59,816 bases of DNA from Methanobrevibacter sp. (lineage in GTDB: Archaea > Methanobacteriota > Methanobacteria > Methanobacteriales > Methanobacteriaceae), in NCBI GenBank assembly GCA_017459665.1, contig JAFUCN010000108.1:1-59816 (forward strand). The letters are read 5' to 3'. Below the pieces are notes generated by a model that did not search any database, had not been told where the DNA came from, and saw only the letters and a list, made by a program, of their open reading frames with translations. Of this stretch, positions 9,901 to 59,815 are shown piece by piece; positions within the stretch are counted from its first letter, which is position 1; each line of letters begins with the position of its first letter. Position numbers and translations under genes: made by a program.

Positions 9901-11345
9901 GTTGCCTGATTATTGTTTTTGTTCAAGTAAAATGTGACCGGAACAGAACTTAAGTCTTTTGCGATTTCACCGTTTTCATTGACAATTGAAATGGAGTATA
10001 CTCCTTTTGATGACTGTGTGATGTTGCTTAATTGCAGTTCATAATTACCACTGTCCATCCATGCTTTAGGACCATATGTATAATATATTACCGGACAGGT
10101 CACGTATTCATCTATTTCAAAGACATAACCTAAAAATACTGCATTTTTAATCTCATCATAATCTCCGTTATTTGAGCCTACATAATTATAGACATCATTT
10201 ACAGCATCATAAGTGTAACTGCCCAAATTAGCCCCCATATATTTGAATTCATTATTATAAACAGGCCTTTCCTTATGACCAATCATATAGTTGTTATTTA
10301 CTTCCTGAAGCTTTTCTCCACCTTTAACGGCAAGATTTCTGGTACGGTAATCATCATAGATTTCATACAATGAATTTTTATAAAAGAAGTTTCCGTTTAT
10401 AACGACTCTTGTAATTTCACAGTTTACATAAACTCCAAACCTATTTTCTGCAATATAATTGCTTAAGACATATTCATATTTGGCGGAAGTTGAATTTACA
10501 CCTGCAAGCTTGTTGCTGGTGATATTGTTGGAGATAATATTAGTGTTTGAAGATCCGCTTTGAATATTAATGCCTGCAACATTATTTGAGTATATGTTAT
10601 TTTCTGTTATCTGTGAGTTTGTTGAACCTACGATAATTATCCCATTGTCATTATTCCTTATAGTTGAATTTTTAACAGTAACCTTATCAGAATTGACAAT
10701 ATTAATACCATTTACAGAGTTAAAGACTTCAACATTTTCAATCTGAACATTTTTTGTACTTTCAAGCCTTATTGCATCGGCCATCTTTTTTGTGTTGATT
10801 GTGCAGTTGCGAATAACAACGTTTGACGCACCATTGACTAAAACACCATAGTCACTACTTTCACCATACATGCTTTGGTCAGCTAATGTAAATCCATCCA
10901 AAACAGACCCGCTGGCTTTAGATGTGAAATAGAATATGCCCACATGGCCTGAAGTGGCAGTAGATGTACATGGAGTCATTGTTGTTCCAACAGTGGATAT
11001 GATAGTCAACTGTTTGTCAACGATTATATGGCAGTGCTGATAGCTTTTTCCGTTGATAATTATTGTATCTCCAGAACTGGCACTGTCGATTGCGTTTTTG
11101 ATTGTTTTACTAGTCATTTCGTTGTTCGGTTCTCCGTCTTGAGATGGAACTTCCTCAACAACGATGACATTTCCGCTTAATAGATTATCTGATGACTGTG
11201 AAATTGCTTGAATATCATCAGATAAATCATCACTTAATAATCCCGTATTATTAAAATTATCCGCATCTGCAGCGCAAACAGAACTTATGGCTACAAATGT
11301 TATTAATAATACAAAGAAGATAAATAAAATTTTTTTAAATTTCAT
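6984..11345 (-). CDS. large adhesin-like protein: two beta-helices and Ig-like repeats
   Basis: 1453 residues with a signal peptide (MKFKKILFIFFVLLITF..SSVCA, cut near residue 26). A first right-handed parallel beta-helix (NosD-like repeats such as NVVIRNCTINT and NSQITENNIYSNN) covers about 60-340. About five tandem Ig-like repeats of 80-90 residues, each ending in a lysine-rich strand with NGKTYTK and NSKGK motifs, cover about 560-1030. A second beta-helix with NNSTNINVISNEI-type turns covers about 1060-1330, followed by a short beta-rich end. No C-terminal membrane anchor or wall-binding repeat is obvious, so attachment is unclear. Proteins of this type are abundant in Methanobrevibacter and are thought to mediate contact with partner cells or glycans. 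Confidence 0.88.
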   Translation of the reverse strand: MKFKKILFIFFVLLITFVAISSVCAADADNFNNTGLLSDDLSDDIQAISQSSDNLLSGNVIVVEEVPSQDGEPNNEMTSKTIKNAIDSASSGDTIIINGKSYQHCHIIVDKQLTIISTVGTTMTPCTSTATSGHVGIFYFTSKASGSVLDGFTLADQSMYGESSDYGVLVNGASNVVIRNCTINTKKMADAIRLESTKNVQIENVEVFNSVNGINIVNSDKVTVKNSTIRNNDNGIIIVGSTNSQITENNIYSNNVAGINIQSGSSNTNIISNNITSNKLAGVNSTSAKYEYVLSNYIAENRFGVYVNCEITRVVINGNFFYKNSLYEIYDDYRTRNLAVKGGEKLQEVNNNYMIGHKERPVYNNEFKYMGANLGSYTYDAVNDVYNYVGSNNGDYDEIKNAVFLGYVFEIDEYVTCPVIYYTYGPKAWMDSGNYELQLSNITQSSKGVYSISIVNENGEIAKDLSSVPVTFYLNKNNNQATPQEGDLYKIVMMKNGTATVRFTVDEFNATGNVVTATVPTPYTVLKTDYYRTLAIDDSNIPGVIVPSTLTVSDMTTYPSSNAYFTATLKDVNGSAINGAVVSFSINSKIINANTDVNGQAKIKISQKEGTYTVTATFNGNDDYDPSSAQAKITVKKDSTKIVASNVNMIPKMAENYVITLKDGNGKALAYQKVTFKVNGKTYNKKTNSKGQATLKLKFTKSKSYKITINFKATNKYKASKVTKTIKVKYSSKTSKLTVPKVTITPKTSKSYTVTLSDGNGKGIAKQKVTVKINGKTYTKMTNSKGKVTVKVKFSSLKTYKVTASYKGSKIYKKASASGSIKVAKTSTSLTAPNMEITPKTEGVYTATLKDSNNKVLASQKVTVQLNGITYTKTTSNNGQISLNFNLAEEKDYSVVVNYGGNTIYGASKASGTISVAKLATEIIGYNKTFSKDSAQEFAVTLKDSKGNALENQNITFTFLNQSSTQLTDANGQAKINLAHQNATVFSVITEFIGTDQFIESSVENQIKISNNTNAVLIDENLPNSEIQRVLDSSDAGSNIEFLGNSYSDISLNVEKSLNIYSSNKTTLTGVDNAVFTINASDVNITNFSIIAHENVGIKIINSSKANILNNSISNQLDESNLQAYLESTVPLPGYGIIIINSTNINVISNEIKEFESGLFASDSSNILISKNILKENNYGIKYGFGVSNTQIDNNTIVDSIGLYTNLVPEGPRGYGIFLNNSAVDVKITNNNITWNHMGISIDSNFSTGIEITSNLISDNVLEGIRFNAGYDLAQNAVEPVVTDNAIYRNARGPSMMILGELSANPGGIYGAGEWNESLRLNIGLNWYGKNQIVKWDVETGVVGYGTMCPRINTSGIAFKEIECIAPGNYSITFYKNGEIASNIPVFEMYATLNNDTEVVFNVINGVGSFGFDAQYFTNSTNEIKISIGSLKDENRIFEVEMSKILDASEIPI

Positions 11346-57271: not shown

Positions 57272-59128
57272 ATGGTGAGTATTATTAAAAAAATTCTAAT
57301 TTTATCAGTTTTAATTATATTATTGTCTATTCCTTTTGTATCAGCAGAAGATACAACTATTGATAACTCTACAACTATTCAGAACGCTGTTGACAATGCC
57401 AACGCAAGCGATACAATTTATTTAAATCCTGGAGTCTACAAGCAGTCAGGAATTAAAATTGACAAAAATTTAACCCTGCAGGGACTTGGTGATGCAAGTG
57501 AAATTGTAATTGATGCAGAACAGAAAGATTCCATCATTCTAGTTGATTCAATATCAAAAATAACAGTTAAAAACATCACATTCATAAATGCATTTTCTGA
57601 CAGTAACGGAGGTGCAATAAAAGTTACAAACGGAGGCCATCTGGTCGTGGACAACTGTAATTTTGAAAATAACAGTGTTGATGACAGCATGGGTGGAGCA
57701 ATTGCAGTTTATGGCCATTACTATGTAAACCCATCCAAATCCAATTGGGGATCTCTAACAATAACAAATTCAAATTTCACAAACAATTACGCAGGCGTTG
57801 ACGGTGGAGCGACAACAACTTACCTATCAGTAGCACATATTTCAAACTCCAATTTTATCAATAACTCAGCAGGACGTGACAGTGGAGGAGTTAATACCCG
57901 GGGGACCGACATAACATTTATCGACAACTGCACATTCATTGGCAATTATGCTGAAGAGGCAGGAGCTGCAATCAAAAACTACCTAAGTGAAATGACAATA
58001 ACAAACTGTTATATCTACAATAATACTGCAAAAATTATCGCAGGTGCAATCAGAAACTGCGGTCCTCTAACAATGACTCATACCAGTGTTATCAACAATA
58101 CTGCTGGCAGAATCGCAAGTATTCTGGAAGTTTACCTTGAAGAGCCAAATCTCATCCCACTTACCAAATTCAATTATAACGAATTTATTGGAAATTACGC
58201 TCCAAAAGAGTCCATTGCCCACATTTATGACATGGGAACTGTTGCACATGACTTTAACTACAATTACTGGGACATTACACCAAATACTTCCGAGTGGAAT
58301 GCATCTTTCATTTGTGAGGCATGTCCAAATCCAAGCATCTGGCTGGAACTCGTTAATGAAACAATTATTGCATCCAATATGACTCGAGGATACAACAGCG
58401 CATATGATTTTAATGCAATATTTTTAGACAAATATGGAATCGGTTTAATAAACAAAGAAGTTCACTTTAATGTCAATGGTAAAAACCATACTGTTTTAAC
58501 CGATGAAAACGGCCTTGGGAAATTAACCCTAAAATTACCAGTCGGATCTTATGAAATTACATCCGTTAATCCTGCTACAGGAGAGGAAGTTACTTCAAAT
58601 GTTAAAATTGTTTCAAGAATTACTCAAAATAACGATTTAACCAAAGATTATCTTGATTCAAAAACATTTACTGCAAAAATCATTGGTGATGACGGCAATG
58701 CAGTTGGAAGTGGAGTGAAAGTGAAAGTTACACTTAATGGAGTGACAAGCACATTAAAAACCAATTCCAAAGGAATCATTACAAAAACTATCAGTTTAAC
58801 AAGTGGAAAATACACCATCAAGGTTAACTACAAAGGTTATACTGCTTCAAATAAGATTACTGTTAAAAATATCTTAAAATCAAAAAATGTTGCAGTTAAA
58901 GTTAAAAAGCCGATTACAGTTAAAGCTACTTTAAAATACTCCAATGGCAAAGTTTTAAAGAACAAAAAAGTTACCTTTAAATTTAAGGGAAGAACCTATT
59001 CTGCCAATACCAACAGCAAAGGAACAGCGAAGGTTTCCATAAAAAACACTTATAAAGTTGGCACATATAAGATTTACATCAAATATGTTGACCAGCAAAT
59101 AAAACAGACCGTTAAAATCAAAAAATAA
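57272..59128 (+). CDS. adhesin-like protein: PMP-type beta-helix plus Ig-like repeats
   Basis: 618 residues. Signal peptide (KKILILSVLIILLSIPFVSA). A beta-helix at about 30-340 has FxNN/GGA(I/V) repeats like the protein at 15786-17402, with an extended DAEQKDSIILV segment. Three Ig-like units follow at about 375-618 (NGKNHTVLTDENG, NGVTSTLKTNSKG, KGRTYSANTNSKG). No C-terminal anchor. TTTATAAAAAT at 57243-57253 places the transcript start almost at the ATG and no ribosome binding site precedes it, so the message looks leaderless. Confidence 0.87.
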   Translation: MVSIIKKILILSVLIILLSIPFVSAEDTTIDNSTTIQNAVDNANASDTIYLNPGVYKQSGIKIDKNLTLQGLGDASEIVIDAEQKDSIILVDSISKITVKNITFINAFSDSNGGAIKVTNGGHLVVDNCNFENNSVDDSMGGAIAVYGHYYVNPSKSNWGSLTITNSNFTNNYAGVDGGATTTYLSVAHISNSNFINNSAGRDSGGVNTRGTDITFIDNCTFIGNYAEEAGAAIKNYLSEMTITNCYIYNNTAKIIAGAIRNCGPLTMTHTSVINNTAGRIASILEVYLEEPNLIPLTKFNYNEFIGNYAPKESIAHIYDMGTVAHDFNYNYWDITPNTSEWNASFICEACPNPSIWLELVNETIIASNMTRGYNSAYDFNAIFLDKYGIGLINKEVHFNVNGKNHTVLTDENGLGKLTLKLPVGSYEITSVNPATGEEVTSNVKIVSRITQNNDLTKDYLDSKTFTAKIIGDDGNAVGSGVKVKVTLNGVTSTLKTNSKGIITKTISLTSGKYTIKVNYKGYTASNKITVKNILKSKNVAVKVKKPITVKATLKYSNGKVLKNKKVTFKFKGRTYSANTNSKGTAKVSIKNTYKVGTYKIYIKYVDQQIKQTVKIKK

Positions 59129-59162
59129 GTGATTTTTTTAATCACTTCCTTCTTTTATTTTT
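59127..59162 (+). terminator. terminator of the adhesin gene at 57272
   Basis: AAGTGATT/AATCACTT stem with a T5 loop (59127-59147) over the last base pair of the stop codon, then a T-rich stretch that runs into the first DtxR-like palindrome. Confidence 0.7.
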
Positions 59163-59177
59163 AGGTTAACCTAAAAA
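59158..59177. promoter_or_regulatory. DtxR-like palindrome 1 (TTAGG-N4-CCTAA)
   Basis: TTTTTAGGTTAACCTAAAAA, a perfect 20-bp palindrome. The core matches the half-sites recognised by metal-dependent DtxR/IdeR/MntR repressors. It lies 11 bases before a TATA box. Confidence 0.6.
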
Positions 59178-59187
59178 AATGAAAAGC

Positions 59188-59197
59188 TTTATATACT
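59188..59197 (+). promoter_or_regulatory. TATA box of a plus-strand promoter between two palindromes
   Basis: TTTATATACT with purine-rich GAAAAGC before it. It predicts a transcript start around 59219-59222, just before palindrome 2, though no coding gene follows. Confidence 0.5.
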
Positions 59198-59225
59198 ACC
59201 ATGACAAATTACTATATAGAGAAAG

Positions 59226-59243
59226 ATTTAGGCGAACCTAAAT
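59226..59243. promoter_or_regulatory. DtxR-like palindrome 2 (TTAGG-N4-CCTAA)
   Basis: ATTTAGG-CGAA-CCTAAAT, with the same TTAGG-N4-CCTAA core as palindrome 1, centred 67 bases downstream and overlapping the predicted start of transcription. Confidence 0.6.
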
Positions 59244-59378
59244 AATCTCACATCATTAGTCAATAATGATAAACTCTCCAAAATTAGAAAATGTGTTAAA
59301 TTAGATTTCCACAATTTGCTAATTTGATACAAGTCGGAAAAATGAAAAAAATCTGCCAAAATTCATAAATTTTTCCTC

Positions 59379-59430
59379 AAAAAAACAAATGGTGTTTATA
59401 AGCCTAAACACCTATTATCTCTCTTTTTTT
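59379..59430. terminator. bidirectional terminator
   Basis: GGTGTTTA/TAAACACC stem (59391-59412). A T7 run follows on the plus strand (59424-59430) and another on the minus strand (complement of 59379-59385). It can end the aldo/keto reductase message and any plus-strand RNA. Confidence 0.6.
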
Positions 59431-59473
59431 ATTCAACAAAACATTAACGATATTTATTTTAAAATATAAACAC

Positions 59474-59815
59474 TTAAATTCCGTAGAATTCCACTATTTT
59501 ATCTAACTTATCGGTTATTTTAACATCAAACATGCAATAGTTTTCACACTTCATGCATTTTTCACATTCACTTGCATGATGAGACAGTTTAAGGTAATGA
59601 GTTTTAGCCAGTTCATCTCCAATCATGGACAAGTCATATAATTTTGAAATCAATGAAATTGGAATTTCATTTGGACATGGCTCGCAATGACCACAATACA
59701 TGCATTGCCCTTCAATATTAACACCGATATCACCAATAACTGAATAATCACAATCTTTGGGTTCAGCATTCAGATAATTCAGACTTTCCTTAAGTTGGGA
59801 TAATGATGATATTCC
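59474..59815 (-). CDS. C-terminal part of an aldo/keto reductase with ferredoxin domain (partial)
   Basis: About 113 residues are visible; the frame is open to the window edge, so the gene continues to the right and the internal ATG at 59701 is not the start. GISSLSQLKESLNYLN is the usual end of the aldo/keto reductase barrel in this group. Then come GQCMYCGHCEPCPNEIPI and ECEKCMKCENYCMFDVKI, two Cys clusters for [4Fe-4S] centres. This is the COG1453-type oxidoreductase, common in anaerobes; its substrate is unknown. Confidence 0.82.
   Translation of the reverse strand, partial: GISSLSQLKESLNYLNAEPKDCDYSVIGDIGVNIEGQCMYCGHCEPCPNEIPISLISKLYDLSMIGDELAKTHYLKLSHHASECEKCMKCENYCMFDVKITDKLDKIVEFYGI

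Follow-up and report, generated by a model that had tools for sequence, protein, structure and literature searches.

The window analysed here is a stretch of 59,816 nucleotides of Methanobrevibacter DNA, near the end of which a non-coding region lies between a gene for an adhesin-like beta-helix/Ig protein and a convergent gene whose product gives a weak 4Fe-4S match. The region (Table 1) contains two palindromes with the exact sequence TTAGG-N4-CCTAA, placed 67 bp apart with a TATA box in between, followed by a predicted small RNA that ends in a terminator. Transcription is predicted to start at ~59217-59222, i.e. 25-30 nt 3' of the TATA box, and the second palindrome therefore lies just inside the transcript. 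The search for plus-strand ORFs of at least 25 aa between 59244 and 59388 gave none, and comparison with the copies present in relatives revealed no short ORF conserved between species. Rfam gave no match in 59158-59430 at E values up to 1.

A preliminary description of this DNA had proposed a metal-repressor-like promoter, with two identical-core palindromes around a TATA box, for a candidate regulated small RNA carrying only short junk frames and closed by a hairpin and T-run. Our analysis supports this proposal: both cores are exact, the hairpin and the T-run are present, the region and its palindromes are kept in relatives, and the motif also occurs at metal-uptake operons. A point to be amended is the location of the second palindrome, which had been placed on the predicted start site; it is indeed near the predicted start, but just inside the transcript.

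Table 1. Position of the features of the locus within the window
Feature	Position	Strand	Remarks
Upstream gene	57272-59128		adhesin-like beta-helix/Ig protein
Upstream operator (DtxR/IdeR-type palindrome)	59158-59177	.	core TTAGGTTAACCTAA 59161-59174; just 5' of TATA box; kept in relatives
TATA box TTTATATA	59188-59195	+	sRNA promoter; among the best conserved promoter blocks
Predicted small RNA, ~205-215 nt	59217-59430	+	start predicted from TATA spacing, end from terminator
Downstream operator	59226-59243	.	core TTAGGCGAACCTAA 59228-59241; just inside predicted transcript; RNA form is hairpin H0
Hairpin H1	59252-59270	+	AUCAUUA-GUCAA-UAAUGAU
Unpaired conserved box CUCUCCAAAAUUA	59274-59286	+	proposed Shine-Dalgarno-pairing seed; reverse complement TAATTTTGGAGAG
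Hairpin H2	59292-59331	+	UGUGUUAAAUUAG...CUAAUUUGAUACA; covarying stem; conserved loop with CACAAUUU
Hairpin H3	59336-59376	+	GGAAAAAU/AUUUUUCC; highly conserved loop AAUCUGCCAA 59350-59359 (AUCUGCCAA)
Terminator	59391-59430	+	hairpin GGTGTTTA/TAAACACC 59391-59412 (RNA GGUGUUUA/UAAACACC), then TCTCTCTTTTTTT (U-run UCUCUCUUUUUUU)
Downstream gene	59474-59815	-	convergent; weak 4Fe-4S match

The RNA family and its structure

Copies of the region were detected by BLASTN (query 59140-59440) in 64 of the 67 Methanobrevibacter genomes analysed, M. thaueri included, and in all 37 of the good ones. A covariance model built from 27 orthologues recognised the family in 62 of the 67, with several copies in each, and in none of 84 genomes from 18 other genera of the order; the window copy was matched at 59255-59428 with 137.8 bits. 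Two types of copies can be distinguished. Type 1 comprises the orthologues of the window copy, which in many species are located beside gatE/thi4, while type 2 comprises paralogues, several of which adjoin feoB and some of which are arranged in tandem. The twin sites are a common feature of both: their spacing is 67-70 bp at 26 of 30 type 1 loci, and among the 65 type 2 copies there are 46 in which they lie 68-73 bp apart.

The predicted fold of the window RNA (-42.1 kcal/mol) is far more stable than those of shuffled sequences (-24.0 +/- 3.6 kcal/mol; z -5.0). Its five hairpins, the unpaired AAUCUCCAAAAU/CUCUCCAAAAU box (the form AAUCUCCAAAAU being that of type 2 copies) and a UCUGCC loop are kept among the family copies. 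The 5' hairpin H0 (UUUAGG/CCUAAA) is the RNA form of the downstream operator, a single sequence which may thus be kept for two functions. In the window copy the flanks of H0, GAGA (59219-59222) and UCUC (59246-59249), can pair, and this flank pairing varies among copies (GAGA/UCUC, AAGUGA/UCACUU or AGUGAUGU/ACAUUACU). Covariation is evident in the stem of H2, where pair positions 7, 8 and 10 are occupied by several Watson-Crick or wobble types and are paired in fractions of 1.00, 1.00 and 0.92, compared with 0.85, 0.94 and 0.70 in re-paired controls; at position 12 the values are 0.82 and 0.52, respectively. For the H0 flanks, H1 and H3, the own arms fit better than swapped arms. The region combines several of the features by which intergenic trans-acting sRNAs are recognised: its own promoter and terminator, conserved sequence, covarying structure and no conserved ORF. 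In our view it is very probable that the copies form a genuine and conserved family of RNAs, new to Rfam, with a promoter of the metal-repressor type.

The presence of short ORFs in some copies might suggest that the locus is a small-protein gene, or else the leader of a downstream gene. This is extremely improbable: no ORF is shared between species, for which reason a small-protein gene was rejected, the indels are not multiples of three, and the terminator closes the RNA. Moreover, the gene that follows the window copy runs towards it, and in G001, G002 and G008 the copies examined beside feoB point away from that gene, so that a cis-acting leader of feoB was likewise rejected.

Several copies depart from the general pattern. 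A sub-group of type 1 (L037, L048 and L050) carries an inserted domain of ~80 nt, starting with AGTCTTATAGTTAAGACATACC, between H2 and H3, and L144 contains at 10370-10522 a truncated copy, reduced to H3 and the terminator, which lies at the 3' end of a gene of the same orientation and may have been reused as the terminator of that gene. Tandem arrays of at least three copies are present in G002:C1:712780-714100 (L145), where the seed differs (AAAACUCCAAAAUUA), G005:C7:86350-87340 (L184) and G017:C22 (L187). In the genome of the window, the locus at which relatives have a type 2 copy (L014, 550-840; G000:C25) retains a twin-site promoter and TATA box, but the RNA sequence behind them is another one, has a terminator of its own and is unmatched by the covariance model; the copy may have diverged or been replaced. 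In L146, L147, L148, L131 and L144, a conserved gene cluster located between feoB and the gene for EF-1 beta is repeatedly flanked on both sides by type 2 copies. Judged by eye only, this cluster includes pilus-type ATPase/TadC-like genes as well as genes for a secreted DUF4012-like protein and a regulator of MarR type.

The multiplicity of copies per genome, the tandem arrays, the truncated copy and the extra domain would also fit a repetitive and perhaps mobile element (a miniature insertion with promoter and terminator) that is kept by duplication and not by function. We regard such an origin as very improbable, since synteny with gatE/thi4 is seen for type 1 copies throughout the genus, H2 covaries, and the motifs are near-invariant while the spacers drift; in addition, no terminal inverted repeats and no transposase came to notice in passing next to the copies that were examined.

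The operator motif and its putative repressor

The number of motifs within the window itself does not stand out, 3 sites having at most one mismatch where 1.98 are expected. At the genome level, the exact TTAGGN4CCTAA occurs 13 times in the window's genome, compared with 5 occurrences of the reversed pattern, and in the 67 Methanobrevibacter genomes TTTAGGN4CCTAAA is found 770 times, compared with 85 for its reverse. The exact sites of the window's genome precede, among others, a cbiM cobalt/nickel transporter operon, a P-type (heavy-metal) ATPase cluster and an ABC transporter (names assigned by eye). In G001, feoB and feoA each have sites upstream; feoB also has them in G008, G002 and G023, and in G008 they precede cbiM operons as well. 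Genes for ferrous iron uptake and the sRNA locus thus carry an operator in common, as expected of a DtxR-type regulon. Judged by this distribution, the motif probably is a genome-wide operator.

A half-site arrangement of TTAGG and CCTAA is typical of DtxR/IdeR operators (PMC7762939). The bacterial consensus has 19 bp (TTAGGTTAGCCTAACCTAA; PMC7762939), and the 14-mer TTAGGTTAGCCTAA within it shows the same N4 arrangement as the putative archaeal operator. Strong matches to a DtxR-family protein were found in 59 of the 67 genomes, which makes it near-universal in the genus; the protein of G008, on which the domain make-up was checked, contains Fe_dep_repress (N-terminal, DNA-binding), Fe_dep_repr_C (metal-binding/dimerisation) and FeoA domains. 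The assembly to which the window belongs (81% complete) yielded no DtxR gene, a search for PF02742 included; incompleteness accounts for this in part, since the genus has DtxR.

The RNA might instead respond to another metal or regulator, such as manganese, nickel/cobalt, or the MarR-type repressor encoded beside feoB. This possibility draws on the sites preceding cbiM-type cobalt/nickel transporters and the heavy-metal P-type ATPase, on the best NCBIfam match of the DtxR protein, which is MntR-like (below the cut-off), and on the MarR-like ORF of the feoB cluster as an alternative regulator. It appears unlikely in view of the sites at the ferrous-iron uptake genes feoB and feoA in several genomes, the DtxR/IdeR layout of the half-sites (PMC7762939) and the wide occurrence of DtxR in Methanobrevibacter. 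Control of the RNA family by iron and DtxR is likely.

The preliminary description had assigned the TTAGG-type core to DtxR-family repressors, which agrees with the published half-sites (PMC7762939), and had suggested a search of related genomes for conservation of the RNA region and for the motif upstream of feoAB or ABC metal-uptake genes; both the region and the palindromes proved to be kept, and the motif is present at feoB, feoA and cbiM operons. That description was right on the regulated RNA candidate, but missed the multicopy nature of the family, the copies adjoining feoB, and the complementarity, described below, between the unpaired box and the sites of ribosome binding in genes for Fe-S enzymes.

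A second conserved non-coding stretch with TTAGG-N4-CCTAA and a TATA box was observed in L015 (~245-410; G000:C7:3645 onward). It adjoins argH, is convergent with the next gene, and has a homologous stretch in L137 near 2293 (G008). Its sequence is unrelated to the sRNA family described here, and it can be considered a further candidate metal-regulated RNA.

Predicted targets and proposed mechanism

Target candidates were obtained by pattern searches: TTTTGGAGA, the reverse complement of the box, was sought at Shine-Dalgarno distance in 12 genomes, with TTAAGGAGA as a control. The genes preceded by TTTTGGAGA include fdhA, fwdF, hypC, a NifU-like gene (GGGtGRT-like), mrp/apbC, nifS, tfrB and a ferredoxin gene, as well as the non-iron genes birA and those for a carboxymuconolactone decarboxylase-like protein and a small membrane protein. 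In many species the box is complementary over 10-15 nt to the Shine-Dalgarno region of fdhA and of fwdF, and in some species it also matches that of hypC, mrp, nifS and tfrB. Methanogens are rich in Fe-S proteins. Iron-related families (counted by hand) make up 9 of 25 families preceded by TTTTGGAGA and 6 of 40 preceded by TTAAGGAGA, a difference that is not significant (Fisher p 0.07); another Fisher test on iron genes, also with hand-counted families, gave p 0.12, likewise not significant, and the enrichment is only suggestive.

Over the block complementary to the box, the start region of fdhA is nearly the same, with TTTTGGAGATTAT(T)AAAATG, in every one of the 16 genomes with the sRNA that were examined besides G002, G007 and G066, while the sequence further upstream diverges. 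In these three divergent lineages the block is shortened to ATTTGGAGATT. As regards covariation of seed and target between lineages, two genomes without an sRNA match point in opposite directions: G061 also lacks the fdhA motif, yet G029 has kept the fdhA start sequence. In G008, the best four duplex energies among 150 start regions are those of ferredoxin, fwdF, fdhA and hypC; these genes had been selected by the motif, and their low energies are therefore not independent evidence. With the window copy alone in its own genome, birA and a MATE transporter gene score best and fdhA ranks 17th; no intact type 2 copy was found in that assembly.

The H3 loop is a possible second recognition loop. 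No Shine-Dalgarno partners were found for its UCUGCC sequence, and its role as a Shine-Dalgarno seed was rejected, the matches of the reverse complement TTTGGCAGAT lying inside reading frames (LAD codons) and not at start sites. The H2 loop (CACAAUUU) and the H3 loop (AUCUGCC) are conserved as strongly as the CUCUCC box, with no mRNA partner found, and this, together with an enrichment of iron genes that is only suggestive, could point to a metal-regulated sRNA with another job, acting via a protein (e.g. an Sm-like or other RNA-binding protein recognising the conserved loops) or on genes of surface or transport functions. We consider this unlikely, since the box looks as seeds usually do, being C-rich, left unpaired by the predicted fold and complementary to Shine-Dalgarno regions, and its complementarity to fdhA and fwdF recurs across many species.

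A promoter located between iron-repressor-type sites, joined to an RNA segment matching the ribosome-binding sites of iron enzymes, probably serves to switch iron-rich enzymes off at low iron. Iron sparing through Shine-Dalgarno pairing is, in our opinion, the best mechanism, with a reasonable though limited degree of confidence, and we find it rather probable that 59158-59430 is the gene for a trans-acting, translation-blocking, iron-sparing sRNA under repression by DtxR and iron. When Fe2+ is plentiful, the DtxR-family repressor would occupy both operators around the TATA box, blocking access to the latter as well as early elongation, and the promoter would be shut. At low iron the repressor would leave, with feoB, feoA and other metal-uptake genes with the same site being derepressed alongside, and the ~210-nt RNA of five hairpins would then be made. 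Its exposed box (CUCUCCAAAAUUA; AAUCUCCAAAAU in the paralogues) would pair with TTTTGGAGA in the Shine-Dalgarno region of transcripts that encode iron-rich proteins, i.e. formate dehydrogenase FdhA, the FwdF polyferredoxin of formylmethanofuran dehydrogenase, the hydrogenase maturation protein HypC and Fe-S assembly proteins, and translation of these would be blocked as an iron-sparing response. The conserved family, the conserved twin operators, the covarying structure, the absence of an ORF, the sites shared with feoB and feoA, and the complementarity were established here by computation; transcription, the roles of DtxR and Fe2+ as regulator and signal, and the pairing with and repression of targets are inferred.

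Comparison with known systems

Iron-sparing sRNAs are a classic bacterial invention, which has arisen several times. FsrA of Bacillus, RyhB of E. coli and PrrF1/PrrF2 of Pseudomonas repress the synthesis of Fe-S enzymes under iron limitation, and the same is proposed here. FsrA directs a C-rich box against the Shine-Dalgarno sequence, and PrrF1 and PrrF2 are tandem duplicates, like some of the Methanobrevibacter copies. All of these bacterial RNAs, however, are Fur-controlled and differ from the Methanobrevibacter RNA in sequence and structure, and RyhB and PrrF need Hfq.

The closest working analogue seems to be IsrR of Staphylococcus aureus, an experimentally tested sRNA of 174 nt with an intrinsic terminator, described in a study which also mentions FsrA, RyhB and PrrF1/PrrF2 as iron-sparing sRNAs (PMC9410917). 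IsrR has one metal-repressor operator (a Fur box) in its promoter and a second just past the start, several unpaired C-rich boxes, and iron-enzyme mRNAs, including fdhA, targeted at the Shine-Dalgarno region (PMC9410917), as predicted for Methanobrevibacter. It differs in relying on Fur and Fur boxes instead of DtxR-type sites, in its bacterial sigma promoter, and in being encoded by a single gene (PMC9410917). The likeness to bacterial iron-regulated sRNAs suspected from the first inspection of the window extends to the IsrR-like twin-operator promoter, the C-rich box and the presence of fdhA among the predicted targets. As regards descent from IsrR, FsrA or RyhB, there was no Rfam match, and the covariance-model searches, which covered genomes of the order, placed the family in a single genus of Archaea. 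The best explanation would be convergence on a like function, with common descent not indicated.

Among methanogens, sRNA154 of Methanosarcina mazei is likewise an intergenic sRNA linked to nutrient limitation, with an anti-ribosome-binding-site sequence (in its case in a loop), but it belongs to another genus, acts in nitrogen and not iron regulation, and also stabilises targets (PMC5867862). No archaeal iron-sparing sRNA was found in the literature searched (open-licence papers). We see an even chance that the family represents the first such system in Archaea, being multicopy, governed by twin DtxR-type operators, and lowering formate dehydrogenase and the FwdF polyferredoxin, at the entry to methanogenesis, at low iron.

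Regulatory RNA is little known in Methanobrevibacter, and the family provides a covariance model, a conserved seed and predicted targets. If the proposal is true, it would make the way in which the supply of iron governs the use of formate and the formation of methane accessible to testing. It would also represent a case of cross-domain convergence in the main methanogens of the gut and rumen, in which even the twin-operator promoter and fdhA as a target would be shared with IsrR.
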